Made by a program: the position numbers and the translations under genes
IMG/VR virus record: IMGVR_UViG_3300009175_001441
Span: 1 to 64,000 of that record
DNA length: 64,000 bases
Source: a virus
Reading direction: 5' to 3' (one strand)
Shown: piece after piece, positions 9,801 to 41,605 of the stretch
Position numbering within the stretch: position 1 is the first letter of the stretch
Layout: every line of letters starts with the position of its first letter
The notes under the pieces: generated by a model
What the model saw: the letters and a program-made list of their open reading frames with translations, nothing else
The model's database searches: none
Told to the model about the DNA's origin: nothing

Positions 9801-12800
9801 TGCTGTTGTTGGTGCCGCAATGTTAATATTAGTAAAGATAGTGGGTGCTTTGGGAATAGATTCAGGGCAAGTCATAGAAACCACTAAAACCATTGGGGCT
9901 ATACTAGTGGGCGCAGCATTAATCATTACTGCCGCTGGTGCTGCCGCATTAGCCATGAAAGAAGTGGGTAAGAACGTAGACGCTATTAAGAAAGCAATAC
10001 CAGATATGATTAAAGGAGCAATAGTCATGGCGGTCTTAGCACCTGTCATGGTATTGTTTGCGGCTGGGCTTATTGGTTTTATTGATGCCATGCTAGGTGT
10101 TATGGGAATTGATGCTGGAAAAGCGGAAGAAGTAGCGAGCAATGTGGCTGGAATACTTATGTCAGCAGGAAAGATTCTTGTGGCTACAGCTTTAGCTGCA
10201 TTAGTTTTAGTTGGCGTCGGTACAGTTGCATCTATGTTGTGGGGTCCACAAGGATGGGTTTTTCTTGGATTAATGGCTGCTGGTGCCGCAGCTTTACTTG
10301 TTTTAGCTCCAGTGATGGTATTGTTAGCTACATCAGTGGTTAAATTCTGTGATTGGGTGATGGGAGCAATTGGTGTCGATGCTTCAATGGCCGCTTCTGT
10401 GGCAGATGAGGTAAGTAACATCCTTGGTAGCGCAGCAAGTATTTTATGGACTACTGCAAAATCAGCGGCTATGTTCTTAGCTTTAGGTGTCGCTATGGCT
10501 TTATGTATTGGACCACAAGGGCTTATTCTATTAAGGTTAATGAGTTTAGGAGCCGTAGCATTGATGGTGTTAGCTCCAGTAATGGCTGGGTTATCTGCAT
10601 CAGTGGTTAATTTTTGTAATGAAGTAATGGGATCAATTGGAATAGATGCTGGAACTGCTTCCCAAGTTGCAGATGAAGTTAGCGGAATTCTCGGTAGTGC
10701 AGCAAGTATTTTGTCAAGTACCGCAAAATCAGCGGCTATGTTTTTAGCTTTGGGTGTGGCTATGGCCTTATGTGTTGGCCCACAAGGATTAATCCTATTA
10801 AAATTAATGAGTTTGGGAGCCGTAGCATTAATGGTAATGGCACCGGTAATGGCGTATTTGGCAGGCTCCGTTGTTAAATTCTGCATGGACGTGATGAGAT
10901 CAATAGGAATTGATGGCGCAACAGCCAAGGCAGCAGCCGAAGATGTGGAAACCATCTTAAATAGTGCATATGAAATAATGCAATCAATAGGTAAAGCAGC
11001 GGCGGTATTCTTGGGAGCAGGAGCGGCCACTTATATGTTGATCGGACCACAAGGACTTATACTGGGCGGGCTCATGCTGTTGGGGGCGGCAGCACTGATG
11101 TTTATTGGTCCAAAAATTGCCGCATTGGCGGCAGGAATCGCCATGATGGTTGTATCGGTATTGAGATCCAACATTCCTAATCCTAATGTATTGAAAACAG
11201 CAACACAAGTTATGCAAGACATTAGCACAATGGTAGAGGCTTTGGGGAACACCATAGGAACCATGACGCAAGTTTTAGTGCCTATGGTTGCAGCCAATTA
11301 TTGGAAGTTCTGGGATACACGATCTCCGTTACAGGTATTACAAGATGCGAGCGGTGGGATATACGACGGATTATCTGTTTTATTTGACTTTTTGGGAGAA
11401 ACCGGGGATAGAAGTATTATTCCTATGTTAATAGAAAACTTCCCAAACACAAGTGATGTGAAAACTGCTGGACAAGTATTGCAGGATGTGGCGGTAATGG
11501 CAGCAGCCATAGGACAAGCACTCGATGTAACTGCTAAAGCATTAATACCATTAACTCAATCATCTGGAATATTGTTTTTTAGTACGCCATCGACATTTGA
11601 TCAATTGAATCAAAAGGCAATAGATAATATGAAGGATGGGTTGTCTAGAGTATTTGCGTTTTTGGGAAGTCCAGTAGATGGTAAAGGCGATAGTATTATT
11701 GCCATGTTAATCAAGAATTTCCCAAACACAAGTGATGTGAAAACTGCTGGACAAGTTATGCAAGATGTAGCAATGATGGCATCGGGCATAGCGACAGCAC
11801 TTGATGTAACTGCTAAGTCATTGATACCACTAACTAAATCATCTGGAATATTGTTTTTTAGCAAGCCATCGACATTTGATCAATTAAATGAAAAAACGAT
11901 AACCATTATGAAGGATGGGCTATCTAGAGTATTTGCATTTTTGGGAAGTCCAGTAGATGGTAAAGGCGACAGTATTATTGCCATGTTAATTAAGAATTTC
12001 CCAAACACAAGCGATGTGAAAACTGCTGGACAAGTTATGGAAGATGTAGCAATGATGGCATCGGGCATAGCGACAGCGCTTGATGTAACCGCTAAATCAT
12101 TGATACCATTAACTCAATCATCTGGAATATTGTTTTTTAGTACACCGTCGATGTTTGATCAGTTGAATGACAAAACGATGAGTACCATGCGAGAGGGGCT
12201 GTCTAAGATCTTCGCATTTTTGGGAAGTCCAGTAGATGGTAAAGGCGACAGTATTATTGCCATGTTAATTAAGAATTTCCCAAACACAAATGATGTAAAA
12301 ACTGCTGCTCAAGTCATGGAGGATGTAGCAACGATGGCTATCAGTATGTCGGCTGCATTAGATGCCACTTCAAAACAATTAGGTCCATTAGTTGAAGAAC
12401 CAGCATGGTATAATTTCTGGCGAGAGTCCCCCTTTACTACTTTGGAAAAGATGACCGAACCGATTAAAACGGGATTCGGTCAATTGGCAAACTTCATCAA
12501 TTCCTCTATCTTGGAAGAAGTTGATAAATTACCAGAAACGAATAAAATGCGTGATGCCGCCAACAAATTATCGGCGGTTGCAGATGCCATGTTGAGTATG
12601 AGTGCTGCATTACAGGCAATGGGAGATGCAGCCAAAGGCTTTAAGAGTAAAAGAGCAATGAATCTTGCGGATGGAGGTTTTTGGTCAACTATAACTGGAT
12701 TATTTGGGTTTGGTGGCGGTGCCAGTGGTGCAGATATAGGGAAGGGATTATTAAATCCATCATCAGCCGAAAAAGCGCAAGCATCGATTGACGATGCCAG

Positions 12801-18507: not shown

Positions 18508-18927
18508 ATGAAATTTTTTGGGGCACCATATCCAATAATTAAACATCCAAGAGGATTTTTACACACTCAGAATGGAATTGATCAAGTAAAAGCAGATTTA
18601 CTGGTTTTATTATTGACCAATCCTGGTGAGCGTGTGATGTTGCCAGAATATGGCACGCCATTAAGAGAACTCATGTTTGAACCTAACGACGAAACAATAA
18701 TAACTTTAGCAAAAGATATGATAGCGGCCTCTATTAGGATGTGGGAACCAAGAATTACCATTAGCGACATTACCGTTACTATGGGATTACCAATAGATGA
18801 TCTTAATGTAAACGATCCCTTGGAAGACATAGAACATATTTTAGGAATATCAATTTCATTTTTTGATCCCGATCAAATTAATGAAATACAACAATTGACA
18901 TTAGAAGTGCCACTAGGAGGCTCATAA
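18508..18927 (+). CDS. Baseplate wedge protein, gp25-like
   Basis: A 139-residue protein of the GPW/gp25 family, about the usual length. It shows the family signatures NPGERVMLPEYGTPLRELMF and the E-P-R triad in RMWEPRITISDI. In T4, gp25 forms part of the inner baseplate core and nucleates the sheath. It lies between the spike and the gp6-like gene in the same order as other contractile tails. A clear GGAAACC ribosome site precedes the ATG, and the stop is one base from the next ATG. Confidence 0.95.
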   Translation: MKFFGAPYPIIKHPRGFLHTQNGIDQVKADLLVLLLTNPGERVMLPEYGTPLRELMFEPNDETIITLAKDMIAASIRMWEPRITISDITVTMGLPIDDLNVNDPLEDIEHILGISISFFDPDQINEIQQLTLEVPLGGS

Positions 18928-18928
18928 T

Positions 18929-20512
18929 ATGGATTATCAAGAAAATTGTCCGGTTAGCATAACACCATATGCACAATCTACGGATATTACCAATCCTAAA
19001 ATCGTTAGTTTGAATTATACAAATCAAGATTTTTGGTCAATGAAAAGTCGTTTGATTCAATTTATACAAGAAAGATTTGGTTCAACGGGTACGATGTTGC
19101 CAAATACATTTAATGATTTTGTGGAATCGGATATTGCTATTATGCTTATTGAGAATTGGGCATTTTTAGCTGACACACTTTCCTTCAAAATGGACCAAAT
19201 TGCCAATGAAATTTTCATTGATACCGTAGCTGAATTAGAAAACGTTTTTAGACTAGCCAGACTCGTAGGATTTTATCCACAGCCTCCCATTGCAGCTAAA
19301 TCTCTTTGGAGTGGAACAATCAATAATCGATTGGCTGTTGATGTAAGCATTCCCACACCAATGCCTGTAGATGTAGCTGTAGATGGGGCTCCATTAACCA
19401 TAGAATTGTTCGCATGTGATTCTAATTTCAATCCTATATTCAATCAGCCGATAGTTATCCCCGCTGGTAGCATAGAATGCAAAAACGTTGTGGGGCTAGA
19501 AGGAACAACCACTGATGAATCTTTTGTGTCCACAGGCAACATTTCCATGTCGTTACCACTATCTCAATCCCCAGTAATTTATGATTCTATACAAGTGGAA
19601 ATAGATGGGGTGTTATGGAAACAAGTGGATTATTTTACAGACTCTAATCCTAGACGGGAATATAGAATAGAATTTGATTCTAATTGGTATGCTTATATCA
19701 TTTTTGGGAATAATCGAGCAGGATTAATTCCATCTGGTGGTTCTGCCATAAAAGTTACTTATAGAATTGGCGGTGGAACAATTGGTAATATCGTGACCAA
19801 TTACTCAGTCGCACAATGGCAAGCTGAAGCTCCTGGAATAGAGTATAACATTCCAGTTTCTTTCACCAATTACACTCAGGGGAAGTATGGTTACAATGGT
19901 GATACCTTAGAAGATATCAAAAACAAACTTCCAAAGTATTTAAGAACTCAAAATCGTGCAGTATCCGGTACAGATTACAAGACATTTGCTGACCAATTCG
20001 TCACACCCTACAATGGACAGATTGGCAAATCCACAGCCGTACTAAGAAATTATGGTTGTGCAGGAAACGTTATTGATATATATGTTTTAGCCTTATGGAA
20101 CACGCTTTATTTGGAACCAGCAAGTCCAGAACTTAAAGCTGAATTTTCTACTGCGCTCAATAATGTAAAAATGCTGACAGACTTCGTGTGTATTAGGGAT
20201 GGAATAGTAGTTTCTGTTGATGTGGCAATTGAAGCCTCATTAGACAAGTCTTATAGAAAATTTGAAGAAGAAATAAAATTATCCATAGAATCCAAGGCAA
20301 AACAATTTTTCTCACTAAACAATTGGGATTATTACAAACCATTAAAAGACACAGATTTAATTAAAACGCTTTCGGATTTGAAACAAGTAGATGGTTACAA
20401 TATTAATTTTACCAATTTATCGGATGAAGCTAATGGTGGAACGTATGTGGATACAAGATACTATGAAATTATTCGTCCAAACAATATTGTCATAACCATG
20501 TTTTACACGTAA
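18929..20512 (+). CDS. Baseplate wedge protein, gp6 / baseplate J-like
   Basis: A 527-residue protein following gp25, as gp6/gpJ does in contractile phages. Its N-terminus has the typical LNYTNQDFWSMKSRLIQFIQ helix and DFVESDIAIMLIENWAFLAD, a signature of this family. The centre has YIIFGNNRAGLIPSGGSAIK and TYRIGGGTIGNI (the G-x-G-x-x-G-x-x-P turn), and the C-terminal part has the NRAVSGTDYKTFADQF and VCIRDGIVVSVDVAIEA elements. T4 gp6 (about 660 residues) forms the dimer ring joining wedges and triggers contraction. Assignment is strong. Confidence 0.88.
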   Translation: MDYQENCPVSITPYAQSTDITNPKIVSLNYTNQDFWSMKSRLIQFIQERFGSTGTMLPNTFNDFVESDIAIMLIENWAFLADTLSFKMDQIANEIFIDTVAELENVFRLARLVGFYPQPPIAAKSLWSGTINNRLAVDVSIPTPMPVDVAVDGAPLTIELFACDSNFNPIFNQPIVIPAGSIECKNVVGLEGTTTDESFVSTGNISMSLPLSQSPVIYDSIQVEIDGVLWKQVDYFTDSNPRREYRIEFDSNWYAYIIFGNNRAGLIPSGGSAIKVTYRIGGGTIGNIVTNYSVAQWQAEAPGIEYNIPVSFTNYTQGKYGYNGDTLEDIKNKLPKYLRTQNRAVSGTDYKTFADQFVTPYNGQIGKSTAVLRNYGCAGNVIDIYVLALWNTLYLEPASPELKAEFSTALNNVKMLTDFVCIRDGIVVSVDVAIEASLDKSYRKFEEEIKLSIESKAKQFFSLNNWDYYKPLKDTDLIKTLSDLKQVDGYNINFTNLSDEANGGTYVDTRYYEIIRPNNIVITMFYT

Positions 20513-23810: not shown

Positions 23811-24273
23811 TCCCATTAAAACAAAGGGTAATATTATCCGAGCGATTGAATATAAAGACGGCACGAAAGAAACAGCTTATTTTCGAAATACTGTTTTAGA
23901 CGGCGGCAAGATGGCATTGACCTATAGTTTGGCCAATCAATATGGAGATGGATATAATTATTACATTCGATTTATGGTCTTTGGTGATAATGGCATGGAT
24001 GCCGGTAGCGAACGATTTGTTGATAGCACCCGTACTAGTCTGTTTGGAAATACTAGAGCACAATTATACGTAAGTCCGGTTATTGATAACAGTATAGTTT
24101 CTCAAGTAATTTTTGTAGCTGTTATGGGATTTGAAGATGCCAACGGGTATGATTTAAGTGAAATGGGTTTACAAATGGCAAATGGGCAGCTTTACAGCAT
24201 GGTAACATTTCCAACCCTAACAAAAACCAGCTTAATGCAAATTACATGGAGTTGGAGGCAAAGCTTCATCTAA
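23797..24273 (+). CDS. Small baseplate or tail-fibre connector protein
   Basis: A 158-residue beta-rich protein starting at the ATG at 23797 (AAGGAGAG upstream), overlapping the preceding gene's end. It ends with MQITWSWRQSFI, a strand ending I-x-W-x-W-x-x-x-F as in many T4-like baseplate or fibre connector proteins. MNIIDPIKTKGNIIRA at the start and GFEDANGYDLSEMGLQ in the middle recur in such proteins. I cannot give a T4 number. The homing endonuclease gene immediately follows, so this gene marks the insertion border but looks intact. Confidence 0.6.
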   Translation: MNIIDPIKTKGNIIRAIEYKDGTKETAYFRNTVLDGGKMALTYSLANQYGDGYNYYIRFMVFGDNGMDAGSERFVDSTRTSLFGNTRAQLYVSPVIDNSIVSQVIFVAVMGFEDANGYDLSEMGLQMANGQLYSMVTFPTLTKTSLMQITWSWRQSFI

Positions 24274-24317
24274 TGGCAAGTTGCAAAATATTTGCATATA
24301 TGTTACTATATAATGAT

Positions 24318-25385
24318 ATGAAACCATATCTAATATTGCCACCTCTTACTTGCGAACAAATAGAAATCATCAATGGCTCTTTATTGGGAGATGCATCCAT
24401 TGGGCACAGCGGGAAGCCAAATCACAATGGAAGTTTGATAAAATCTCAAAGTAAGTTCGACATACTTGGAATAGACAAAATAGATTATATGCAATGGCAT
24501 ATAAACAAATTAACGCCTTACAGCAACATGACAATATATTGCAAATCATCAAAATACAAAATAATAAACAACAAATTACGTCAACCATGCAATGTGCGAA
24601 CTGCATTTGTTCAATATGTAGGATATGTATTTACGACACACCGCAATCCAATTTTAACCGATATGTCATATAAATGGTATGCCACAGATTGTAATGGTCA
24701 TTATACATATCGCAACAAACGAAGAGTTAAAATCATACCACACGATATAAAACTTACGCCACTCACTCTTTGTGTATGGCATATGGACGATGGATATGCC
24801 AATTCAATAGATGGAAATATTACGTTGAATACGCAGGGATTTACTTGGGATGAATGTGAATTTTTATCTGAGAGATTAAGATTAGATTTGAATATTACAT
24901 CGAAAGTGCGTGCTAAAGATGGACACCAAATTATATATGTGCCGCTGAAATCATATTTTGACTTCATAAATATCATAAAGCCATATGTGGAATGGAATTG
25001 TTTCAAACACAAAATAGACATGGAAACATATAATAAAAAACCACAGATTGGTGAAACGCATTCGCAAGCAACATTTACAAATAGTAAAATTAAACAATTA
25101 GTACAACTGCATAAGCAAGGTTGGTCACATGAAAAATTGTCTAAAAAATTTAGAACGGCAAAAGCCAATATTAGTTTAATATTAAGTGGAAGCCACTGGT
25201 CTCATATAACCGGCATTCAATACAAACCCACAAAACCAAGAATGGGCGAGGAGGTCAAAAGACACATTGTTGAACTTTCTCAAGTTGGACTCACTCAAAA
25301 AGAAATAGCAAAAACGCTTAAAATAAATCAATCCACTGTCAGTAGAACCATCAAAGGAGCAATATGCCAGACATCGGTAACCTAA
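24318..25385 (+). CDS. LAGLIDADG-family homing endonuclease with C-terminal HTH
   Basis: About 355 residues from the ATG at 24318; in-frame ATGs at 24273 (overlapping the previous stop as TAATG) and 24246 are possible but poorly supported. Two active-site helices are visible: INGSLLGDASIG near the N-terminus and LCVWHMDDGYA in the middle, the two-motif pattern of the LAGLIDADG_2 group. The C-terminus has two helix-turn-helix units (SHEKLSKKFRTAKANIS and TQKEIAKTLKINQSTVSRTI) that would aid DNA binding. Its last 22 bases overlap the start and ribosome site of the following tail gene. A freestanding mobile gene sitting between structural genes, with no function in the particle. Length and base use do not stand out from its neighbours. 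Confidence 0.88.
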   Translation: MKPYLILPPLTCEQIEIINGSLLGDASIGHSGKPNHNGSLIKSQSKFDILGIDKIDYMQWHINKLTPYSNMTIYCKSSKYKIINNKLRQPCNVRTAFVQYVGYVFTTHRNPILTDMSYKWYATDCNGHYTYRNKRRVKIIPHDIKLTPLTLCVWHMDDGYANSIDGNITLNTQGFTWDECEFLSERLRLDLNITSKVRAKDGHQIIYVPLKSYFDFINIIKPYVEWNCFKHKIDMETYNKKPQIGETHSQATFTNSKIKQLVQLHKQGWSHEKLSKKFRTAKANISLILSGSHWSHITGIQYKPTKPRMGEEVKRHIVELSQVGLTQKEIAKTLKINQSTVSRTIKGAICQTSVT

Positions 25386-27327: not shown

Positions 27328-28020
27328 ATGTCAAGTGAAACCTTGGATACCCAAATAGCACACATTTTGGATAGGGAGATTGTTAATAGACACAGCTATT
27401 TTCAACTTAAATATTTTGTAGTAGGTAAAGAGTATACTCGTCAAAGTAAAATGTGGTGTTGTATTCGAGAGCTTCGGGCTCGCCAACAATCAATTATGGC
27501 TATGCAATCTAAACTAGAAGATTTAGCAGACGACATAGAGTTGATGAACATTGAAATGGAACGAATCCAATCAATAGAATTGGATAGTAATGAGCTAAAT
27601 ACTAGAGAACGAGCCCTTCATTTGAGAAAAAAAGAACGGCAAAAGCAGTCTATTGAACAATCAGTCGTTGAAATCAACAATAAATTGAAAGATGCCAGGG
27701 AAGAAGCAAGTTTTTTTGCGCAAGCTTTTAATGCAATATCAGCAGAAGAAGAGTTAAAGCCTTATGACGACCTGCCTTCGCAAACCGCCTATTGGAATGA
27801 GAAGCTTACCCAAGAAGTGTATCTTAGGACACTTTTGAATCAACCGCTTGAACTAGAGTTGGTTAAGACGATTTTGTCTATAAAAGATGATGTGCCAATC
27901 AAAAAAGAAATACTAGATATGTTGGAAGCTCAAAAACAACAATTGATGTTAGCTGTAAAGCATCAGATACCAGAAAAAATGCAACTATATAACGAATCAC
28001 TGGAGGAACATGGCCGATAG
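27328..28020 (+). CDS. Coiled-coil protein of unknown function
   Basis: A 230-residue, highly charged helical protein. Residues about 45-140 have heptad-like hydrophobic spacing (QQSIMAMQSKLEDLADDIEL, EINNKLKDAREEASFF), and a second helical stretch covers 155-225. It ends 11 bases inside the next gene (stop in TGGCCGATAG), which indicates coupling. It starts the operon of three fibre genes that share an N-terminal domain, so it may be an assembly chaperone or a trimerisation partner. I have no family for it. Confidence 0.65.
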   Translation: MSSETLDTQIAHILDREIVNRHSYFQLKYFVVGKEYTRQSKMWCCIRELRARQQSIMAMQSKLEDLADDIELMNIEMERIQSIELDSNELNTRERALHLRKKERQKQSIEQSVVEINNKLKDAREEASFFAQAFNAISAEEELKPYDDLPSQTAYWNEKLTQEVYLRTLLNQPLELELVKTILSIKDDVPIKKEILDMLEAQKQQLMLAVKHQIPEKMQLYNESLEEHGR

Positions 28021-29071
28021 AATATCAAGTTTGGATTCAGGATACGTGTCCGGTGACATATCAGTATTCCCCAATGCTGTTGATGATCGTGAATCTCTTT
28101 ATGAAGTAAGAAATAAAGCAGAAACCACATTGGCAAGAGGATTGCCATTTTCCGCCACTAGAATCGCAGTCGAAGACGCATCTGCTTTTCCTCCAAAAGG
28201 CTTATTACGAATTGGACCCAAACCCGGAGAAGCTGGAAATGCTGAATTGATTTATTATGGCAGCCGTACCGAGACAACGTTTTCTAGTCTATTGAGGGGA
28301 TTTGCGGGTTCGGTTCAAACGCAGTGGGCATCTAATGCTTATGTTAGCAATGCTGTCATGGCAGAACATCACAATGCTGTTAAAGATGCCCTATTGAATA
28401 TGGAAACTTATCTTGGCACAAGAAGCAATCCTGCCATTGGGTCATTTAATGATAATTTGCATAATCAAGAAGTAAGATTTTTGACACCGAGAGCGGCGTT
28501 TCTTGCTTATCCCAGACAAGGCAAACCACCATTAACAGTAAGATTTCAAAGCTTTTCTGATGGTGATGTCTTGCGTACTTTTTGGGATTTTGGCGATGGT
28601 GGAGTAGACACCGATCCCAATCCTATTCACACATACGCTACTGAGGGCGTGTTTAGTGTTAGCTTAAACATTATTACCTCTACTGGAGGGCAAGGATCAG
28701 CCACTAAAGATAATTATATTACGGTTTCTGAAAATATTATTACACCATTTTTCTACATTGTGCCAATTAACGCCAGCACAACTGGCCCGTGGTATTCAGA
28801 GGAAACAGCCGCAGAGCGAAGAATCACCGTAGATCCATTATGTGAAGCTACAGAATTCCAATTTGTAGATCAAACAGATGGAAACATTACTGAAAGGTAT
28901 TGGATATTCGCAGATGGAGATAAAGATAATGATTTAGATCCTGACGTACATGTAACCACGCATACATATGCATCTCCGGGAACGTATGCTCCCACATTGA
29001 TTTTGGTATTTGCAGATCAGAGTACACAAAGATCGTTCTTGTCTCCCGACAAATCTCTTGAAATTTTATAA
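28010..29071 (+). CDS. Tail appendage protein with shared N-terminal domain and PKD domains
   Basis: A 353-residue protein. Residues about 20-135 are the domain shared with the next two genes, with SLYEVRNKAETTLARG, YYGSRTET and the helix AEHHNAVKDALLNMETYLG. The second half has two PKD-like domains: PPLTVRFQSFSDGD ... FWDFGDGGVDTDPNPIHTYA, then FQFVDQTDGNITERYWIF ... THTYASPGTY. PKD domains are immunoglobulin-like and commonly mediate surface or carbohydrate contact. It lies in a row with two larger paralogues. Inferred fibre, collar or baseplate decoration. Confidence 0.75.
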   Translation: MADRISSLDSGYVSGDISVFPNAVDDRESLYEVRNKAETTLARGLPFSATRIAVEDASAFPPKGLLRIGPKPGEAGNAELIYYGSRTETTFSSLLRGFAGSVQTQWASNAYVSNAVMAEHHNAVKDALLNMETYLGTRSNPAIGSFNDNLHNQEVRFLTPRAAFLAYPRQGKPPLTVRFQSFSDGDVLRTFWDFGDGGVDTDPNPIHTYATEGVFSVSLNIITSTGGQGSATKDNYITVSENIITPFFYIVPINASTTGPWYSEETAAERRITVDPLCEATEFQFVDQTDGNITERYWIFADGDKDNDLDPDVHVTTHTYASPGTYAPTLILVFADQSTQRSFLSPDKSLEIL

Positions 29072-29081
29072 AGGAAACCCA

Positions 29082-31358
29082 ATGACCATTCCAATAGCCA
29101 GCACTTATCCCGCAGTTTTAGATTCAGACACCAATCTCTATGCGGTTCATGATGCTTTACGAGTCACATTGGCAGAAGACTATCTTCCGGGTCAAACCAG
29201 CATTTATGTTACGGGAGAGGTTGGGATGATGAGTAAGTTTCCATCCACTGGAATTATCACTCTGACAGAGCAGTGTAGTGATGTTAATTTACGAGCACTA
29301 AGTTTCTTTTACAGTAGCAAAACAGATTATTCGTTTGATGGACTTATAATACTTCCAGAATTTTCTCAAAAAGATTATGCAAAATCTAAAAACATAACCC
29401 ATGTGACTCTTAATGTAATAGCGCAGCACCATAATTCTCTTAAAGATGCCCTGATAGCTATTGAGACTTTTATGGGAGTAAGCGGCAAAATTGATACTGT
29501 ACCTTTTGGAGATACAATAACAGGTCGTCTTAATTTTCTAACAAAACTAGTGTTTACGCCTAAAGCATGGTTTAGAATTATGGGATCAACTGTTGGATTG
29601 GTGCCCATAGACTTTCAATTCAAAGACGAGTGTATGCGATTGGGTACAGGAGAGGTTTTGTTTACGTGGAATTTTGGAGACACAAATGTATCAGTGGCAT
29701 CGGTAATACAAACCATATCTATTACTGATCCCACCATTAGCGTAATATCGGTAGCTGCGGGAGTGAATATCCTTAACGTATACGATTTTATAGAATCTCC
29801 AGAAACCTATGTTAAAAAGACTTATGTAAAAACTTATGATGATGCAGGGAAATGTGACATAGGATTAACAGTGCAAAATGCTTATGGTGTAGCGAGCGTG
29901 ATATTTACTGATATGGTTAACCCGAGATTGGAAGCTCCACGGGAAGCTATAATTAGTATTATTGGTGTGGTTCCAGCCATTAGCACCATTCCTGTTATAC
30001 GAAGCCCGATCAATACAGTAATTACATTAGAAGTACCATCTGGAAAAATACCCGGATCGAGCCCCTCACAATCCTATGGCGGAGAACTGTTAGATGGTTC
30101 AGATACGCCCTATGATCCGATTCTTGAATACGTGTGGTCTTTGGGAGATGATCTTACTCATTCACAATCCTCCGTCACCAAAGCCATGTATAGTATTGGT
30201 GGATTATATGACATCAAATTGCGGACCAATACTGAATTTGGAGCATTCAGAATTACGCATTATCAAAATGCCATAGATATCGTAGAAGATGTAAACTTGT
30301 GGTTATGGACAAAATCCACGTCCGTAACAAAAAGAGCACATGAATTTGGTTTAATTAGCGAAACGTTCAAAATACAACCGGGAACACTAGCTGTTACACA
30401 AGATGATAGTTTCTTAACAGGTAGCAATAATGAAACTCAAGCCAAGAGAGAATTTAACAGAAATGTGGCTGTGACTCCCAAAACAACCACATCTTCAGGA
30501 CAATCAGGATTAATGAGAATGTATTGGTCGCAAGGCGGCAACAATCCTGCTAGTTCTCAATCAATAGGAATTGCTGAATATATAGGATTTACAGATTCTT
30601 ATACATCGCCAGTATCCTTCCCTACTAAATATTGGAATTGGCTTTGCCTTAATTCATCAACTATCAGTTACTTTTTGTTTGGGTCTATGCCTACTGGTTC
30701 TATTCCTGCTGGTCATAATCCTTCCGATCAAAACTTTGGAGTATTACCTAAATCATCTGTTACCTATACTACAGATAGTGATCAAACATATATCAATGGG
30801 GCGGATGATCTCATGGAACACATATCTGATTATGGATTGGGTACAGTGCCGCTAAATGGTTATTTTGCTGTATACAGAGGATGCTGGAAGGGCGGTTCTG
30901 GATATTTTATTAGAAATGGCGCAGTTGATCCATATTTTCAGTTAAATAATTTCTATAAAACCAATAGCGTGATAGGCGATGAATTGGTGTCTATTACTAA
31001 AATGCCAGATATGGCTGGATCTGCTAAGGTTGAGGGTCAGTTAGTGCCATTGTATAATGGCGTATTTTTCTTTAATAATTCGGGCAGTATATCAGCATAT
31101 AATGATACAACTGGTGTTTGGGAAACAGGGGGTCCATCTTTAAGTAGTGTGGCCTATCGATCTGTACAAGATACATCAGTAGTAGGATTTGATAGTGCGG
31201 CTAACACTTTACTTGCAGCTTCAGATGGAGGATATGTAGCATATTTAAGCTTTGATTACAGTGTCAATGCATTTATTAAATTCAATGGTCAAAATTTAAC
31301 ATTCAGTAGTATGGTTAGCAGACCCACCGGAGATCAGTTCGTCATGGGTATATATTGA
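29082..31358 (+). CDS. Tail appendage protein, paralogous N-terminus with PKD-like domains
   Basis: A 758-residue protein starting at the ATG at 29082 behind AAGGAAACC, chosen because upstream starts lie inside the previous gene. Residues 1-125 repeat the shared attachment domain (LDSDTNLYAVHDALRVTLAE ... AQHHNSLKDALIAIETFMG). A PKD-like segment follows around 175-290 (VPIDFQFKDECM, FTWNFGDTN), and another around 345-425 (LEYVWSLGDDLTHS, FGAFRITH). Residues 430-758 are beta-rich with kelch/propeller-like phrases (GVFFFNNSGSISAYNDTTGV, AASDGGYVAYLSF), so a distal receptor-binding or lectin-like head is likely. Virion role inferred. Confidence 0.72.
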   Translation: MTIPIASTYPAVLDSDTNLYAVHDALRVTLAEDYLPGQTSIYVTGEVGMMSKFPSTGIITLTEQCSDVNLRALSFFYSSKTDYSFDGLIILPEFSQKDYAKSKNITHVTLNVIAQHHNSLKDALIAIETFMGVSGKIDTVPFGDTITGRLNFLTKLVFTPKAWFRIMGSTVGLVPIDFQFKDECMRLGTGEVLFTWNFGDTNVSVASVIQTISITDPTISVISVAAGVNILNVYDFIESPETYVKKTYVKTYDDAGKCDIGLTVQNAYGVASVIFTDMVNPRLEAPREAIISIIGVVPAISTIPVIRSPINTVITLEVPSGKIPGSSPSQSYGGELLDGSDTPYDPILEYVWSLGDDLTHSQSSVTKAMYSIGGLYDIKLRTNTEFGAFRITHYQNAIDIVEDVNLWLWTKSTSVTKRAHEFGLISETFKIQPGTLAVTQDDSFLTGSNNETQAKREFNRNVAVTPKTTTSSGQSGLMRMYWSQGGNNPASSQSIGIAEYIGFTDSYTSPVSFPTKYWNWLCLNSSTISYFLFGSMPTGSIPAGHNPSDQNFGVLPKSSVTYTTDSDQTYINGADDLMEHISDYGLGTVPLNGYFAVYRGCWKGGSGYFIRNGAVDPYFQLNNFYKTNSVIGDELVSITKMPDMAGSAKVEGQLVPLYNGVFFFNNSGSISAYNDTTGVWETGGPSLSSVAYRSVQDTSVVGFDSAANTLLAASDGGYVAYLSFDYSVNAFIKFNGQNLTFSSMVSRPTGDQFVMGIY

Positions 31359-31394: not shown

Positions 31395-33944
31395 ATGGCA
31401 ATAGGATTCCCCCCACAACCAGTTTACCCCTGGGCAATTGACTCAGATCGCAATCTGTTTCTAGTGTATAATACTACGGAATCTCGACTAGCCAGTGATA
31501 ACAATGCTTGGTCCCAAGAATTGGAAATCACTCCTGTAAACGCTGATGAGCCGGAAATATGGCCAGACAACGGCTTTGCTACAATTGAAGGCGAAATGCT
31601 TTATTATGATGCCGTAGATAAAAATTCTGATGGAAAGGTTTATCGTCTAAAAAGGTGTGCAAGAAACATAGGAGGAGAACAAACTAAATTTAATTCGGCT
31701 AAAACTTGGGTGCGAGGATTCATCATTGCCGAACATCACAATCAATTAGTGGATGCTATTACATTAACTCAAGATTATATTTTAGAAGAAGCGGTGGTTC
31801 TTTCAGAATTAGAAACAGAACCAGACATTCCAGATGACCATCGATGCGCAATAGTATCCTTTGATATTGTCACCACTGAAGATTCTCTAAAGGGCGTGAC
31901 TATTCAATATGAAATTATTGTCACAGGAACGTTTAACAGTTTTATTTTAGACTTTGGAGATGGTACAACTACAGCCGATTTAATTGGCAGTCATACGTAT
32001 CCACCTAATACCAGTCCCGATCCGGTAGTTACAGTAAGCAATAATAGTTGCACGGTGGTAGTCACTCCTTCGGAAAGAACAGTACCTACAACTCCTCCGC
32101 CAACTGAAATTCCTCCGCCATTTGAAATTCCTATTTGCGATACTCCAGAAATTCCAAGACTGTCTTGTGCAAACTGTAATGTATCTACAGATTTTACATT
32201 ACCACAATTTGTATTTCCATGTCTTGATATACCCAGCATTACTTTCCCAAGTGTGTATATCAACATACCCAGCATGCCGTATATTTCAATATACATAAAC
32301 ATCCCTAGCGTTATCACAATTGTTCCAAGCACAATACAATTAATAGTTCCTAGTATAGCCAATATCTCATTGATCGTACCATCGTTTGCAAACATTTCAT
32401 TGGTAGGATGTCAAGTTCCAAGCATTATTACAATACAACCTGCTATACCCTCGGTAATTTCCATACAATTATCACCAGCTATTCCAAGCATTATTTCATT
32501 GGTTCCGGCCATTCCATCTATTATTAGTGTGGTGGGTATTCCATCGGTAATCAGAATTGAACCTACGATTCCATCGGTTATCTCTCTGCTCAATTGTTTG
32601 CCGTCATTAATCAGTGTGGTTTGTAATATACCATCAACTATTGCTTTGGTAGGCACCATACCATCCACCATTAGTTTGATTGGAGTAATACCGTCAACCA
32701 TTAATTTGGTTGGCACCATACCGTCAATTATCAGTTTAGTTGGCACCATACCGTCCATCATTAGTGTAATTGATGACATACCTCATACGATTAGTTTACA
32801 GGGTAGCATACCATCAATAATTAGTTTGGTGGGTTGCAGCATACCATCAATAATCAGTTTGGTGGGCACTATACCATCAATTATCGATGTAATAAACACG
32901 GTGCCGTCAATCATAAGTGTAAGAGACGATATTCCGCACATTATCAGTTTAGTAGGCACACTGCCCTCCATCATCAACGTGTTAAACACAGTGCCATCAA
33001 TCATAAGTGTAAGAGATGATATTCCACACACAATTAGTTTGATAGGAGTGTTGCCATCTATTATTTCATTGATTCAAAACATACCAACTACAATTAGTAT
33101 AGTTGGTTGTACGATTCCATCGATTATTTCGATACTTGGCTGTTGCAACATCCCATCAATAATCACAGTGAATTGGGGCAATGCACCCACTGCAAGTTTT
33201 ACCGTTGATGTAAACTGGAACACTCCTCCGTCCGTAGTGGTTACATGGTCCGCACCGCCGCTCGTAAGCTGCGTAGTAATTGTCAGATGCCCCACATCCA
33301 CCACTCAAGCATCACCATTTACTGGACCGATACTGAATGAACGATTCGAAGACAGCTTTAATTACAACATGTTATCTCCTAGTTTTGAGGGTAATGATCT
33401 TGGAATACCGTCAGAAATTAAAATCATTGCACCAGTTAACTTACCGCACGTGCAAATGGTACATGATTTACCAACGGAAATCAAACTAAGAGTACCCAAA
33501 ATACCAGATATTAAAATTGCCGATCATGATAAACCAATTAGAATTGAAGGTCCGATCAAACCATTACCAACACAAATTCGAATTAAAAGTGATGTCAACC
33601 TACCTAATACGATTGAATTAATAGCTGACAATGTTCCAAAAGCAATAAAATTGGATGCCAGCGATGTTCCTTTGGCCATTAGGTTAGAAGTGCCAGCACA
33701 CTTTCCATCGATCATTTTCTTAGATGCATCGGGTATTCCTGCCACGATTCAAGTAACAGGCGTACCAAAATCTATTGAATTGTTACATAATTTACCAAGC
33801 TATATTCCACTTATGGTGCCGGAAAATCTAGAAGTGCCACTTGTTTATAAAGGAAGCCCAATTCCCATCCAACTTACTATGGATAATATAACAGGTGAAA
33901 ACGGCGAAAACTGTTTCGCTCTAGTGCCTTGCGGTAGAAAATGA
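31395..33944 (+). CDS. Fibre-like protein with decapeptide repeat
   Basis: An 849-residue protein. Residues 1-130 are the attachment domain shared with the two preceding genes (AIDSDRNLFLVYNTTESRLA ... AEHHNQLVDAITLTQDYIL). A PKD-like domain follows near 150-215 (SFILDFGDGTTT, SHTYPP), then a Pro-rich linker. From about residue 279 to 595 there are about 32 units of roughly ten residues with consensus I-P-S-I-I-S-L-V-G-T. About a dozen more diverged units follow to residue 830, then a short C-terminal end. Regular strand-turn units suggest a long beta-helix or spiral shaft. It overlaps the next gene by four bases. Confidence 0.8.
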   Translation: MAIGFPPQPVYPWAIDSDRNLFLVYNTTESRLASDNNAWSQELEITPVNADEPEIWPDNGFATIEGEMLYYDAVDKNSDGKVYRLKRCARNIGGEQTKFNSAKTWVRGFIIAEHHNQLVDAITLTQDYILEEAVVLSELETEPDIPDDHRCAIVSFDIVTTEDSLKGVTIQYEIIVTGTFNSFILDFGDGTTTADLIGSHTYPPNTSPDPVVTVSNNSCTVVVTPSERTVPTTPPPTEIPPPFEIPICDTPEIPRLSCANCNVSTDFTLPQFVFPCLDIPSITFPSVYINIPSMPYISIYINIPSVITIVPSTIQLIVPSIANISLIVPSFANISLVGCQVPSIITIQPAIPSVISIQLSPAIPSIISLVPAIPSIISVVGIPSVIRIEPTIPSVISLLNCLPSLISVVCNIPSTIALVGTIPSTISLIGVIPSTINLVGTIPSIISLVGTIPSIISVIDDIPHTISLQGSIPSIISLVGCSIPSIISLVGTIPSIIDVINTVPSIISVRDDIPHIISLVGTLPSIINVLNTVPSIISVRDDIPHTISLIGVLPSIISLIQNIPTTISIVGCTIPSIISILGCCNIPSIITVNWGNAPTASFTVDVNWNTPPSVVVTWSAPPLVSCVVIVRCPTSTTQASPFTGPILNERFEDSFNYNMLSPSFEGNDLGIPSEIKIIAPVNLPHVQMVHDLPTEIKLRVPKIPDIKIADHDKPIRIEGPIKPLPTQIRIKSDVNLPNTIELIADNVPKAIKLDASDVPLAIRLEVPAHFPSIIFLDASGIPATIQVTGVPKSIELLHNLPSYIPLMVPENLEVPLVYKGSPIPIQLTMDNITGENGENCFALVPCGRK
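32228..33180 (+). repeat. About 32 decapeptide-coding repeats (I-P-S-I-I-S-L-V-G-T type)
   Basis: Roughly 30-base units, each coding a hydrophobic residue, Pro, usually Ser, then alternating Ile/Val/Leu and small residues. Some units carry one extra residue (often Cys or Gly), so the period shifts slightly. The DNA is less conserved than the protein, so selection on the repeat structure is more likely than very recent duplication. Longer composite units repeat too: the block around IINVLNTVPSIISVRDD occurs twice. Confidence 0.9.
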
Positions 33945-34810
33945 TCATCAATAAACACGCCAACAAAAATCACTATCTGCGAACCGAAGACGGATTGTGG
34001 ATAAGAGATTTTACTAAGCCATATGTCAAAGCTATTGATATTAATCGATTAGTTTCAGATGGTGATTGTCATACATTTCTGTCCAATGAATTAATCAATG
34101 GCAAACGAGATGTGATTGGCATAGATGGAGAGATATTAGAATACAATGATGCCGTTATTGTTTCTGATGGCTACGACTTTGAAAACAAACATAAATTATT
34201 GGCTAGCCTACCAAACAATATTGTTATCATAGGTGTAAATGGAGCATTAGCTAAGTGGAAACTAATGCAAAAAAATACCCCACCCGAACTTCGTAGGATT
34301 ATGTCATGTTATGTGGTGAACAACCCATACACTGAATGTTTGCACTATCTTCCAAGACAGCATTCCTATTATCCACAATGCATTGCTTCTTTAAGAACAA
34401 AGCCAGAATTTTTAGATGGATATAGAGGTAATATTGCCACATATAGTCCTTCACCGAGCGAATATTATGCTGGCCCGAAAACCGATCCTCAATATTTTAT
34501 AGATGATTATAGAAACCCCATTTGTGCAGCTATTGGCCTAGTCTATAAATTCCATGTAAAAAGACTGTTACTTCTATGTTGTGATAACTTATTTGAAGGA
34601 ATGCGACCAGGAGCCGTGCCCATTAATGAGACTCTTTGGTGCTATCCGCAGCAATGTGTTTCACACCGTATCATTGATGGTAATTTATATTGGTTGGAAA
34701 AAAGTGGAGTACAAATTGCAAACTGTTCTAGCGGAATTGTGTATAATTATGCTAGATATATTTCAGAAACAGAAATACACTCCTTCTTCACAGAAGAGGA
34801 AGAATTATAA
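33941..34810 (+). CDS. DUF115/MptE-like Rossmann protein, possibly sugar-related
   Basis: A 289-residue alpha/beta protein. NNIVIIGVNGALAKWKLMQ, a short strand SCYVVNNPYTECLHYLP, then DYRNPICAAIGLVYKFHVKR and LLLLCCDNLFE follow the outline of the MptE-like/DUF115 Rossmann group: a first strand ending V-N-x-A, later an A-x-x-L-A/G-x-x-F-x-x-K helix, and a strand ending in Asp. Related proteins are linked to flagellin glycosylation or pterin metabolism. It directly follows the fibre gene (4-base overlap) and is coupled to the next gene by TAATG. It could modify the fibre or be a structural chaperone. Moderate-to-low certainty on function. Confidence 0.55.
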   Translation: MIINKHANKNHYLRTEDGLWIRDFTKPYVKAIDINRLVSDGDCHTFLSNELINGKRDVIGIDGEILEYNDAVIVSDGYDFENKHKLLASLPNNIVIIGVNGALAKWKLMQKNTPPELRRIMSCYVVNNPYTECLHYLPRQHSYYPQCIASLRTKPEFLDGYRGNIATYSPSPSEYYAGPKTDPQYFIDDYRNPICAAIGLVYKFHVKRLLLLCCDNLFEGMRPGAVPINETLWCYPQQCVSHRIIDGNLYWLEKSGVQIANCSSGIVYNYARYISETEIHSFFTEEEEL

Positions 34811-36747: not shown

Positions 36748-37713
36748 ATGCGAATAGTTTCAAATAAAGCAAAGGCTCTCCCATTAGGACTTCAGCAATT
36801 TTATGATCAAAGAAACCAAATATGCATTATATATGCGAGCGGTGGTCTTGGTGATTATTTAATGTTACGAATGATACTAGACGACATTAAACGATTGTTG
36901 CCAAATGGAAAATTGATTTTATCTTGTGCTAGCGAAAAGGAACGATATGTCATTTTAGCAGATCATCCTGCAATTGATGAATTTGTTAATATTCATACAG
37001 ATTATGATGGCTATGGTGCGGTTTATGATTTATCTCATTCTGCCAGTCGTTATGAATCAATAATGGCTCCTCGATCAGAAGATCATCGTAGTGACATTTT
37101 TGCTTCTGCTTGTGGCTTTACATTGACCACGCATAATATGCATTTTAATCTAAGTGAAAGCACCATGATAAATGGTAAAAACACATTAGATAAACTGTGC
37201 GGTGGATCGACAAAGCCCAAACTAGCCTTTTGTCCTAGATCTGTTATGTCCAATAAGAATTTAGACTTAACACAGATGCAGGCAGCATTGGAGGCTATAC
37301 GGGAACAAGATGTATTTGTTTTTGCTATTCACACACAACCCATTGAGGGATTAGAACAAATTCCAACCTTATGTGATTTAGATATCACATCATGGATGGG
37401 AGTAGTCAATGCCATAGACTACATGGTAACAGTAGACACCAGTCATTTCCATTTAGCAGGCGGAATGAAAAAACCATTAACGGGAATTTTCACTTGGGCA
37501 GATGGTAAGGTGTATGGAAAATATTTTGATTTTGAATTAGTACAAAAGCATCGAGACAACGGAGATTGGCCATGTGGTCCTTGTTACGCATATGAAAGAT
37601 GCCCAAAAACAAAAGATTTCGTTAAGCCATGTCTTACCGAATTGACATCTGAGGAAATTAAAGATGGTATTCGTAGGATGTTTGCTCGTTGGCCGGTGGA
37701 ATCCAAGCGTTAG
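36748..37713 (+). CDS. Glycosyltransferase family 9-like (heptosyltransferase fold)
   Basis: A 321-residue GT-B-type protein. Near the N-terminus IIYASGGLGDYLMLRMILDD has the Gly-rich G-G-x-G-D loop of heptosyltransferases that contacts the acceptor or nucleotide-sugar. The C-terminal half has DYMVTVDTSHFHLAGGMKKP, the family's D-[ST]-x-x-x-H-[LI]-A-x-x-x-x-x-P motif. CGPCYAYERCPKTKD at about 276-290 is Cys-rich, as in several phage members. Host enzymes add heptose to the LPS core; in a phage this could alter host LPS or modify a virion part. The identity of the sugar is not visible from sequence. Confidence 0.75.
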   Translation: MRIVSNKAKALPLGLQQFYDQRNQICIIYASGGLGDYLMLRMILDDIKRLLPNGKLILSCASEKERYVILADHPAIDEFVNIHTDYDGYGAVYDLSHSASRYESIMAPRSEDHRSDIFASACGFTLTTHNMHFNLSESTMINGKNTLDKLCGGSTKPKLAFCPRSVMSNKNLDLTQMQAALEAIREQDVFVFAIHTQPIEGLEQIPTLCDLDITSWMGVVNAIDYMVTVDTSHFHLAGGMKKPLTGIFTWADGKVYGKYFDFELVQKHRDNGDWPCGPCYAYERCPKTKDFVKPCLTELTSEEIKDGIRRMFARWPVESKR

Positions 37714-37969: not shown

Positions 37970-38986
37970 ATGAGTATAAGTTTTGATTGTGGGACATATA
38001 ACCTAGTGTGTTGTCGTAGGGATTTAACTGGCAATTTCATACACAAGCGTGAGGTGAATGCTTTCTTGAAGATTTCTTTAGACAAACCATTTGTCTTCAA
38101 TATGATGAAGCAGGTGGGCGTACCGCTTATCGAGAGAAAAGAGGCGGGAGTAGCTTATGCATTGGGTGAAGCGGCCGTCAATATGGCTTACACCATGAGC
38201 CAGCTTGAACTTCGCAGACCGATGTCGCAAGGGTGTTTGAATCCAAAAGAAAAGAATGCTCAGCAGATTATGAGCATTATGATGTATGGATTATTAGGCG
38301 ATACCGTTCAGGACGGAGAAACCCTTTATTACAGCGTGCCAGCTAACGCCATCAACGAAGAGACTGATGCTGATTACCACTCCAAGGTTTTAGAAGCCAT
38401 ATTCAAAGGATACAAAGATAAGAATGGAAATAAAGTAAAGGCATATCCAATCAATGAAGGTCTGGCTCTTGTGTATGCGGAACTTGCGGATAAAGCTTTC
38501 ACCGGCATTGGTATAAGTTTTGGTGCAGGTATGGTTAATCTTTGCTATTCTATTTATGGGGCTCCGGTATTTGATTTTGCTTTGGTTAACTCCGGGGACT
38601 GGATTGATAAAATGGCTGCAAAAGCTACGGGTGAGACTCCTGCCTTTATCAATCAAGAAAAACTTAAAACCGATTTGCTAGTAGATCCCGATTCTCTTGT
38701 GCAACGAGCTATAAAGTCACAATATGAGATTATGATGCAGAAAACTGTATCAGGAATCAAAAAAGGTTTGGAAAGCATGGGCAATAAAGTACATGCTACT
38801 CAAGCTGTAGATATTGTTGTGGCTGGTGGCAGTAGTTTGCCAAATGGATTCGATGTTTTGTTCACAGATGTAGTTCAAAAAGCCAACCTTCCTATACAGG
38901 TTGGGAAGATTATTCGTCCTGCTGATCCTCTTTATAGTGTGGCAAGAGGTTGTCTTGTGGCCGCAGAAGCCGCAGATAAAGGGTAA
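37970..38986 (+). CDS. Actin-fold ATPase-like protein
   Basis: A 338-residue protein of the actin/Hsp70/ParM superfamily. Visible: phosphate-1 loop SFDCGTYNLV at residues 4-13, connect-1-like INEGLALVYA at 161-170, phosphate-2 region GISFGAGMVNLCYS at 181-194, adenosine motif IVVAGGSSLPNGF at 282-294, and a C-terminal RGCLVAAEAA helix. In phosphate-2 the usual Asp before the Gly-x-Gly is Ser, so ATP hydrolysis may be slow or altered. AGGAG precedes the ATG. Possible roles are phage-DNA or virion positioning, partition, or a chaperone-like function. Fold assignment is good. Function is inferred. Confidence 0.78.
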   Translation: MSISFDCGTYNLVCCRRDLTGNFIHKREVNAFLKISLDKPFVFNMMKQVGVPLIERKEAGVAYALGEAAVNMAYTMSQLELRRPMSQGCLNPKEKNAQQIMSIMMYGLLGDTVQDGETLYYSVPANAINEETDADYHSKVLEAIFKGYKDKNGNKVKAYPINEGLALVYAELADKAFTGIGISFGAGMVNLCYSIYGAPVFDFALVNSGDWIDKMAAKATGETPAFINQEKLKTDLLVDPDSLVQRAIKSQYEIMMQKTVSGIKKGLESMGNKVHATQAVDIVVAGGSSLPNGFDVLFTDVVQKANLPIQVGKIIRPADPLYSVARGCLVAAEAADKG

Positions 38987-39795: not shown

Positions 39796-40047
39796 ATGGA
39801 AATGAAACCCATCGAAAAGGCAGTGCAACGTGAAATTAGCGATCTAGGTGCTGGCGCATATTTAATGATGCATGGTTATAAGGTTATAGGCCGTAGAGGC
39901 AAGGCTATTGTTTTTGAAGTTGAAGAACAAGGTAGTCGTGAATTCGAAGAACGCACTATGGAATATCTAAGCAGTGAATTTCACCGTTTTGATTCTTGCC
40001 TCATGTCTTTGAAGAAGATTGGCGAATACATGCCTGATCGTAGGTGA
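39796..40047 (+). CDS. DUF5659-like small protein
   Basis: An 83-residue protein. The ATG at 39796 is chosen because GAAAGG lies just upstream and longer frames start inside the terminator. Residues about 14-75 (AYLMMHGYKVIGRRGKAIVF, then EYLSSEFHRFDSCLMSLK) follow the DUF5659 pattern: a short helix-strand-strand-helix protein with a K-G-K hairpin. This family is frequent in phages, with unknown function. The gene is followed by a small gap and the repeat-containing gene. Confidence 0.55.
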   Translation: MEMKPIEKAVQREISDLGAGAYLMMHGYKVIGRRGKAIVFEVEEQGSREFEERTMEYLSSEFHRFDSCLMSLKKIGEYMPDRR

Positions 40048-40102
40048 TATTTTGACCAATGCCAGATATATATTCCATAAGGAATTATTGAGGAATATTA
40101 AT

Positions 40103-41605
40103 ATGGCTGAAGCAACTAAAGAGCAAATGACGCAATTAGAGAAGGAAAAGGAAGACCTTTTCATAAATCTTAATCGTCAGTCGCAAGGGCTTGTAGATCA
40201 ATTAGAAAAAGCATTATTGGCCTTAGAACCCAAGACTGCTACTGGACAACTTGCGACACAGGTTGCGGGGGCTACACCAGCACAAAAAGCCATTCAAGGG
40301 TCTTTGCCTTGGTTCAAACATGGAATGAGAGGTTTCTTACGTAAACTTTGGTATGGAGATCATCCAACCAATCCCGATTGGAAGCACGTAGCAGGTGTCT
40401 ACGAGAGCATTAATAAAAGGATTACTCTTAGAGAATACATTGAGATTCAAGAAGGTATTGAGCAAGCAGTGAATGAGTTTTTTGCAGAAGCTACATCTGT
40501 GCAAAGTTTACCAGATGCGATTCAATCGTATTTTATAAAATTCAAAACTGATTTAGCGGCCACTATTAATTATTACACAAATCAGATGTACGACTTGGGC
40601 AAGAAGCACGCCAATACAAATGCTTCTATATCTGCAAAGGCTCCAGAAACACAAGTAGATAAACCAACAGGCATGGGAGCCATAGATCGAAATGCTCCTA
40701 TACACCCCGAGCCAGAAGTGTCTCATGCTCCAACTCCACTTCCGCCTCCACAGCATGAACCAGAGGCCCAGCATGAACCAGAGGCCCAGCATGAACCAGA
40801 GGCCCAGCATGAACCAGAGGCCCAGCATGAGCCAGAGGCCCAGCATGAGCCAGAGGCCCAGCATGAGCCAGAGGCCCAGCATGAGCCAGAGGCCCAGCAT
40901 GAGCCAGAGGCCCAGCATGAGCCAGAGGCCCAGCATGAGCCATCAGATAATCCATTTGAGGATGAATCTGAAGCTGAGCCGTTGCCAGGAGAAGGTGAAG
41001 AATCGAGAGCATCTCGCATTAGAGATTTGCCCACTAATCATAGAGGAGACGCCATATTGGGTGTCCAAGCAGCCACCGATTTTAATCCTTGGGAACCAAA
41101 ATATGGAGCGGATGAAGTAGAGTCGCCAAAAGTTCCACGTAAAAAAGGTCGCCCCCGTGGTACAGGAGAAGCAGATAAGGCATCAGATCCAGTGTTCAAT
41201 AAAATATTACGCAAGTCTGGATCGGATTTATTGTTAAAGCGGCACTTGTCACCAGAAGACTTAGAGACAACCCTCATACATCTTCATCGACAAGGCGTAG
41301 ATTTACAAGATATTAGATCAGTTAAAGATGTTTTATATCGTGCCACTGGAGGCAAATATGATGACACTGGTGCGCTAGTAAGAAAATATGCTGAACTTCA
41401 AGGCATGGATAGAACCCATGCATATGAATACATTAAATCTAGAGCAGAAGAACAACAAGAGTCTAGAAAATGGACTATGAGCAATGTACAGCGTATGTTA
41501 TTGGAACAATCGTTGGCACAAAGCAACAAATTACCGTTGCCTGAAAAGATTGCTTTCTATAAAAATTTACTAAAATCCACCACTCATACCGCTGGGAATG
41601 TTTGA
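40103..41605 (+). CDS. Unknown protein with hexapeptide repeats and AT-hook-like motif
   Basis: A 500-residue protein from the ATG at 40103 (TTGAGGAA upstream). Residues 1-180 are helical, ending near YYTNQMYDLGKKH. Residues 216-278 are ten full copies and one partial copy of Q-H-E-P-E-A. An acidic linker follows, then KKGRPRGTG (about residues 348-356), which resembles an AT-hook that binds AT-rich DNA. The C-terminal helical part (HLSPEDLETTLIHLHRQ) may bind protein. The last 36 bases overlap the convergent 41570 gene. Possibly a DNA-organising or virion-internal protein. Confidence 0.7.
   Translation: MAEATKEQMTQLEKEKEDLFINLNRQSQGLVDQLEKALLALEPKTATGQLATQVAGATPAQKAIQGSLPWFKHGMRGFLRKLWYGDHPTNPDWKHVAGVYESINKRITLREYIEIQEGIEQAVNEFFAEATSVQSLPDAIQSYFIKFKTDLAATINYYTNQMYDLGKKHANTNASISAKAPETQVDKPTGMGAIDRNAPIHPEPEVSHAPTPLPPPQHEPEAQHEPEAQHEPEAQHEPEAQHEPEAQHEPEAQHEPEAQHEPEAQHEPEAQHEPEAQHEPSDNPFEDESEAEPLPGEGEESRASRIRDLPTNHRGDAILGVQAATDFNPWEPKYGADEVESPKVPRKKGRPRGTGEADKASDPVFNKILRKSGSDLLLKRHLSPEDLETTLIHLHRQGVDLQDIRSVKDVLYRATGGKYDDTGALVRKYAELQGMDRTHAYEYIKSRAEEQQESRKWTMSNVQRMLLEQSLAQSNKLPLPEKIAFYKNLLKSTTHTAGNV
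40751..40942 (+). repeat. 18-bp tandem repeat (QHEPEA), ten copies plus a partial
   Basis: Units start at 40751 and recur every 18 bases to 40931. The first four use GAA for the first Glu and the later ones GAG; otherwise units are identical. The array is direct and without spacers, so it is expanded by slippage or recombination. Confidence 0.95.

Follow-up and report, generated by a model that had tools for sequence, protein, structure and literature searches.

What kind of protein does a virus build from some thirty consecutive ten-residue units? The question is raised by an open reading frame in the window (the whole 64,000-nucleotide stretch of viral DNA analysed here). Our reading, to which we assign a probability of about 0.75, is that its product is a structural fibre attached to the baseplate of a huge phage with a contractile tail, and that this fibre has a beta-structured shaft that acts as a spacer and whose length is set by unit-wise gain and loss. 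The gene and the parts of its product are as follows, with the evidence for each in brackets.

31395..33944, + strand: repeat-shaft fibre gene, 849 aa (ORF list; full-length relatives)
31416..31814, + strand: N-terminal anchor ('AEHHNQ' domain), residues 8-140 (alignment A3, hhalign, AF2)
31851..32063, + strand: PKD-like domain, residues 153-223 (Pfam in relatives, profile match, AF2)
32076..32300, + strand: Pro-rich linker with irregular proto-units, residues 228-302 (AF2 pLDDT mostly <45)
32301..33188, + strand: decapeptide shaft, residues 303-598, ~30 units of consensus I-P-S-I/T-I-S-L/V-V-G-T (motif scans; AF2)
33189..33404, + strand: linker (residues 599-670) in which a W..PP..V...CP.STT motif precedes an acidic stretch
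33405..33884, + strand: C-terminal module, residues 671-830, with charged IPxxIxL units of 8-13 residues (alignment A2)
33885..33941, + strand: C-terminal tail with a CFALVPC-type ending

A motif scan of the fibre protein found 41 occurrences of P-x-x-[IVL]-x-[LVI] between residues 242 and 822, some 30 of them in the regular shaft (303-598) and about a dozen in the diverged C-terminal module (671-830). This agrees with the count of about 32 clear and a dozen diverged units in an earlier note on this DNA; the single stretch of more than 500 residues described there, however, resolves into two modules of differing composition, split by a non-repeat linker of about 70 residues (599-670). The shaft unit follows the consensus [IVL]-P-S-x-I-S-[LVI]-x-x-x, and spacing is exactly 10 in 19 of 24 consecutive intervals (residues 341-586). 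Self-identity of the shaft is 0.43, 0.37 and 0.43 at lags of 10, 20 and 30, whereas the maxima of 2,000 shuffles (lags 3-34) averaged 0.18 and never exceeded 0.23. Pro2 and Ile5 are invariant in the window's units, with Leu, Val or Ile at position 7, Ile, Val or Leu at position 1, and Ser or Thr favoured at positions 3 and 6; as the scans presuppose Pro2 and hydrophobic residues at 5 and 7, only positions 1, 3 and 6 provide independent evidence. The repeat is also seen in the DNA (TRF, period 30, 71% matches). Across units, the first and second positions of the Pro2 and Ile5 codons are 100% identical, while third positions are 0.43-0.45 identical. Scrambled third positions beside fixed first and second ones indicate that selection on the protein maintains the repeat, and that it is not a fresh DNA duplication.

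The earlier note did not recognise this repeat from known fibre shafts, and the searches support the view that it is not a described repeat family: neither Pfam, PHROGs, PDB sequences nor a Foldseek search of the PDB gave a significant match to the repeat or shaft. The window protein had no match in PHROGs or among PDB sequences and, in Pfam, only a sub-threshold PKD match and one at chance level. Among 34 relatives, PKD was the only Pfam match, and there were a few PHROGs matches of one member each. A literature search for the repeat found no description of it, and matches in plasmids were to Mycetohabitans autotransporters at 13-16% identity. The PKD-like region is recognised through the family: PKD_4 was matched in 22 of the 34 relatives (best E 1.4e-4), and a profile of the family alignment matched the PKD domain of collagenase ColH (E 7e-5).

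The case for a tail fibre comes from the genes around it, listed here with their matches.

18508..20512, + strand: baseplate wedge genes, gp25-like (18508-18927) and baseplate wedge protein (18929-20512)
28010..29071, + strand: upstream paralogue 1, anchor and PKD domains (PKD_4, E 1.9e-21; phrog_2885 baseplate wedge / phrog_4406 virion structural)
29082..31358, + strand: upstream paralogue 2, anchor and PKD (PKD_4, E 2.2e-8)
33941..34810, + strand: MptE-like (PF01973) gene (8 of 11 homologues matched, best E 9.4e-6)

The baseplate wedge genes (GPW_gp25, E 2.7e-18; phrog_261, E 2e-17; phrog_219, E 3.3e-24) lie upstream and so place the cassette in the tail region; a Phage_base_V protein gene is also found upstream of the fibre gene. 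The anchor, 35-69% identical among relatives (alignment A3), recurs in both upstream paralogues, to whose N-termini it aligns with an hhalign probability of 98.1 (E 1.2e-13), and in paralogue 1 the anchor domain itself matches the PHROG baseplate-wedge and virion-structural families. Both paralogues are kept, and the order of the cassette is preserved, in all 57 loci with sufficient flank. In one relative (L011, 8305-15351) the anchor is followed by a few units and then by RCC1 propellers (E 6.5e-158), and in two others (L086, L094) by other distal sequence. A baseplate fibre whose outer part can be exchanged would be expected to look like this, with an anchor that is shared with paralogues and joined to varied distal domains. 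The designation 'fibre protein' in the earlier note thus gains support from the baseplate neighbours, from the anchor common to two PKD paralogues and from distal exchange in relatives; as in tail fibres, a gene in the baseplate/tail region combines a conserved N-terminal attachment domain with an exchangeable distal part. L011 also carries further kelch-like repeats, and its RCC1 and kelch-like region replaces the C-terminal module.

In all 40 loci whose flank is long enough, the MptE-like/DUF115 gene lies directly 3' of the fibre gene. Its product might glycosylate a virion protein, judging from its homology to Maf-type transferases. The idea that the shaft is what this linked enzyme glycosylates was weakened by the presence of the gene beside two near-unitless relatives (L010 and L012) too.

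Direct searching retrieved one near-identical contig and a 30%-identical homologue in a 595-kb huge-phage genome (LR756511.1). Alignments served as queries to recruit further loci, one for the N-terminus, one for the C-terminal module and one for the whole pair; the scan with the C-terminal alignment (A2) led to 48 loci, and the N-terminus is carried by 69 distinct proteins, 53 of which are complete. The relatives come from metagenomic virus contigs, except for LR756511.1 and one MAG contig. The single match in a search of genome_contigs was L144, a contig of 25 kb binned as Neisseriaceae, which is probably a phage contig and not safe as a host call. The relatives, about 70 distinct ones, have the N-terminal anchor and PKD domain in common, and most also have the C-terminal module. 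This module is 38-58% identical among them (A2), starting with GIPSEIKI and ending with PENxEVPLVYKG, and the W..PP..V...CP.STT motif of the preceding linker is also found in several relatives.

What lies between these conserved parts differs from phage to phage. Complete relatives range from 592 to 2048 aa, and 184-1647 residues separate the PKD domain from the C-terminal module. The number of units ranges from 0 to ~135, the period is 10-13, and the unit sequence changes as well: IPTQITFGPVT-like in the shaft with ~135 copies (L075), PPSFDCISFC in L002, IPTSIHINTPN in L008, IPTSILAYNVN in L006, IPTTISVYDD-like in L101 and the 13-mer SPASFTFGPAPKI in L111. Almost no units are present in L010 and L012, so that, judging from the sequences, a long shaft is dispensable. 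The homologue in LR756511.1 (L002, 9986-12010) is full-length and lies in the same gene order as in the window, but it is unannotated and has ~10 copies of its Cys-rich unit. It is the only full relative among named phages in the phage collection searched, and the family has therefore probably gone unstudied so far. Two Cys per shaft unit (PPSFDCISFC type) occur both there and in L015 (5998-10146), and it is conceivable that regular disulphide or metal ladders run along such Cys-bearing fibres.

Several observations bear on how shaft length changes. Two relatives (L071 and L072) are 100% identical apart from one exact 33-nt unit. Mean similarity is 0.64 between units at lag 1 and drops with distance to 0.45 at lag 8, a decay that local duplication would predict, and the commonest larger gaps between close pairs are 11 and 13 residues, which equals one unit. 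The contig terminates within the fibre gene in 16/69 relatives, suggestive of assembly failure in near-identical repeats. Together, these sequence comparisons point to units being gained and lost singly, via tandem duplication or unequal recombination, and to the array of each genome being homogenised.

The shaft fold was approached through AF2 models of the monomer, using a 34-sequence alignment for the full-length protein and 15 sequences for the shaft (residues 363-593). In the full-length model, residues 30-110 mostly have a pLDDT of 80-91, the PKD domain 84-91 and the C-terminal module mostly <65, while the shaft is given one beta-strand per unit at ~47-65. Foldseek matches to this model were mostly PKD domains and unrelated low-scoring chains. 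The beta structure proposed in the earlier note is thus moderately supported, by one predicted strand per unit at a pLDDT of 50-70, neither disordered nor confident. As to its suggestion of a solenoid or spiral, the monomer model superposes on generic solenoids, and the triple beta-spiral repeat does not fit.

One possible fold, with odds not far short of even, is a two-sided beta-solenoid, monomeric or trimerised, in which two decapeptides (20-22 residues) form each coil and strands fall on alternate faces. The shaft-only AF2 model has regular strands, mostly of 7 residues, and 3-residue turns, and its best VIA-align matches are repeat proteins with 20-22-residue coils, YopM (Z 13.8, rmsd 7.5) and CroV FNIP (Z 12.8, rmsd 6.1), along with curli CsgA (Z 9.7). 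Some relatives (L033, L092 and L107) also have two-unit superperiods. The model is of low confidence, however (mean pLDDT 64, pTM 0.47), and at this level the solenoid superpositions (rmsd 6-11 A) are a hint of fold, not an assignment. Foldseek found no match to the shaft model in the PDB at E <= 0.001 (best E 0.0096), and the lone match at that threshold in a viral library was a nameless 1248-aa protein. Moreover, the commonest large gaps are single-unit indels, which would swap the faces of such a solenoid. A 2- or 3-unit super-period, which would fix the number of strands per coil, was sought across the family and not found; similarity just decays with lag.

The frequent single-unit indels somewhat favour an oligomer with one strand per chain, whereas the AF2 monomer favours the two-unit coil; given how dominant these indels are, a one-strand-per-unit oligomeric fold is at least as plausible as a solenoid. 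In its specific form, which we regard as a genuine but tentative possibility, small beta-barrels would be strung together into a homo-oligomeric shaft, with one short strand per unit from each chain, and every unit would be an autonomous layer at least ~15 A thick. The nearest parallel is the beta-bracelet of Orsay virus CP-delta, whose strands have 5 residues and whose loops have 3, with 8 residues spanning 15 A (PMC7565637). In both, each repeat supplies one short strand, in which inward-facing hydrophobics alternate, and a short polar turn, and the shaft links an N-terminal anchor to a distal part. Such a string would accommodate the free insertion and deletion of single units and a unit length of 10 to 13. 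On the other hand, the Orsay repeat is an 8-residue V/L-x-V-x-V with a 3-residue charged loop and no Pro in its consensus; the unit of the present family has 10-13 residues, a near-invariant Pro2 and inward positions 5 and 7 plus position 1, and virus and sequence are unrelated. The bracelet is a pentamer solved by crystallography, while the window's shaft is known from sequence and a monomer prediction. The two folds differ greatly in what they imply for size: the window's shaft would be ~7 nm long as a solenoid and ~45 nm or more as a string of barrels.

A trimeric triple beta-spiral, as in the shafts of adenovirus fibre and reovirus sigma1, is improbable. Those shafts resemble the present one in their Pro/Gly turns and buried alternating hydrophobics and in joining attachment to head by a varying number of repeats, and the gene context here is fibre-like. 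However, the triple beta-spiral repeat needs two antiparallel strands per ~17 residues (PMC7565637; also given as ~15-17), whereas the window's family has a period of 10-13 and one predicted strand. Trimeric long tail fibres whose middle is beta-helical, such as that of phage 7-7-1 (PMC12796354), are similar in having a baseplate anchor, a beta middle and a distal module and in being baseplate-proximal, but they end in C-terminal jelly rolls and have no described decapeptide repeat, and no sequence relation to them was found.

Least probable is an internal ruler, tape-measure-like or of another helical kind, whose repeats would be 11 residues long. Tape measure proteins, helical rulers within the tail, do evolve in length through duplication and loss of short units (PMC3271669), and tblastn weakly matched tape measure proteins of Ruminococcus phages (E 9e-4), which likewise carry IPxII-type motifs. 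However, the matched proteins look helical (Ala/Leu/Lys-rich), and the matches were set aside as compositional resemblance to a helical protein, while the shaft is beta-branched (I/V/S/T), Pro-rich and predicted beta, and its gene is a separate one that follows the baseplate genes. By length and position, the better tape-measure candidate is the 2354-aa ORF at 6859-13923, the probable tape measure gene.

The reading as a baseplate-attached fibre with a spacer shaft draws directly on the repeats, the conserved ends, the variation in unit number, the selection at protein level, the gene context and the exchange of distal domains. From there, we infer that the protein is present in the virion, is attached to the baseplate and contacts a receptor, as well as its beta fold and oligomeric state. 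The N-terminal anchor, shared with the two neighbouring proteins, would attach the fibre at the baseplate, and the PKD domain and Pro-rich linker would lead to a rigid beta shaft of 10-residue units, each consisting of a short strand with Ile5 and Leu/Val7 inward, followed by a Gly/Asp-x-Ile-Pro-Ser turn. The conserved C-terminal module would be the distal part of the fibre. With the shaft as spacer, unit number would set its length, and tandem duplication or unequal recombination would add or drop single units, so that phages could alter the reach of the fibre, and possibly its surface chemistry, with both ends untouched.

Variation in phage fibres is usually found at the tips. Here, throughout a broad group of uncultured huge phages, the ends are conserved and the shaft is hypervariable, be it in the number of units, their length or their residue content; this arrangement allows a direct test of selection on fibre length. 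Phage fibres with repeat shafts are already known as a kind of object, while the repeat itself, its spread through uncultured huge phages and the unit-wise length variation appear to be new, and there is a real chance that the shaft fold is new as well. Lying outside all families in the libraries searched, the repeat may represent a new viral route to a fibre of adjustable length. A bolder proposal, doubtful as a whole, is that the xPSxIxL unit forms a new fibrous beta-fold: an oligomer with one short strand per chain per 10-13-residue unit, stacked as ~1.5-nm autonomous layers into a length-programmable fibre of huge phages, to which single units are added or dropped and which would extend to 200 nm or more in the relative with ~135 units. 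The unit accommodates 10-13 residues and varied side chains (Cys-rich, Thr-rich, acidic and Phe-rich), and the structure of one so tolerant would define a robust, designable fibrous module.

The window contains several other features of note. An actin-like protein (37970-38986) matches Pfam Volactin (PF25216) with E 9.8e-67, and a gene of this type is present in 28/40 family loci with enough downstream flank, at ~61-67% identity. Volactin is otherwise known as a haloarchaeal actin, and its counterpart in huge phages merits separate study. A glycosyltransferase family 9 protein (36748-37713, E 3e-7) is present in 26/40 loci. A LAGLIDADG_2 homing endonuclease with an HTH domain (24246-25385, E 6e-21) is encoded after the baseplate genes and ahead of the PKD cassette. 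Two further tandem repeats were seen: a 279-bp (93-residue) repeat in 3.3 copies (11413-12338) inside the 2354-aa ORF, and an 18-bp repeat in 10.7 copies at 99% (40751-40942), which encodes QHEPEA hexapeptides in the ORF at 40019-41605 and is a very recent expansion.
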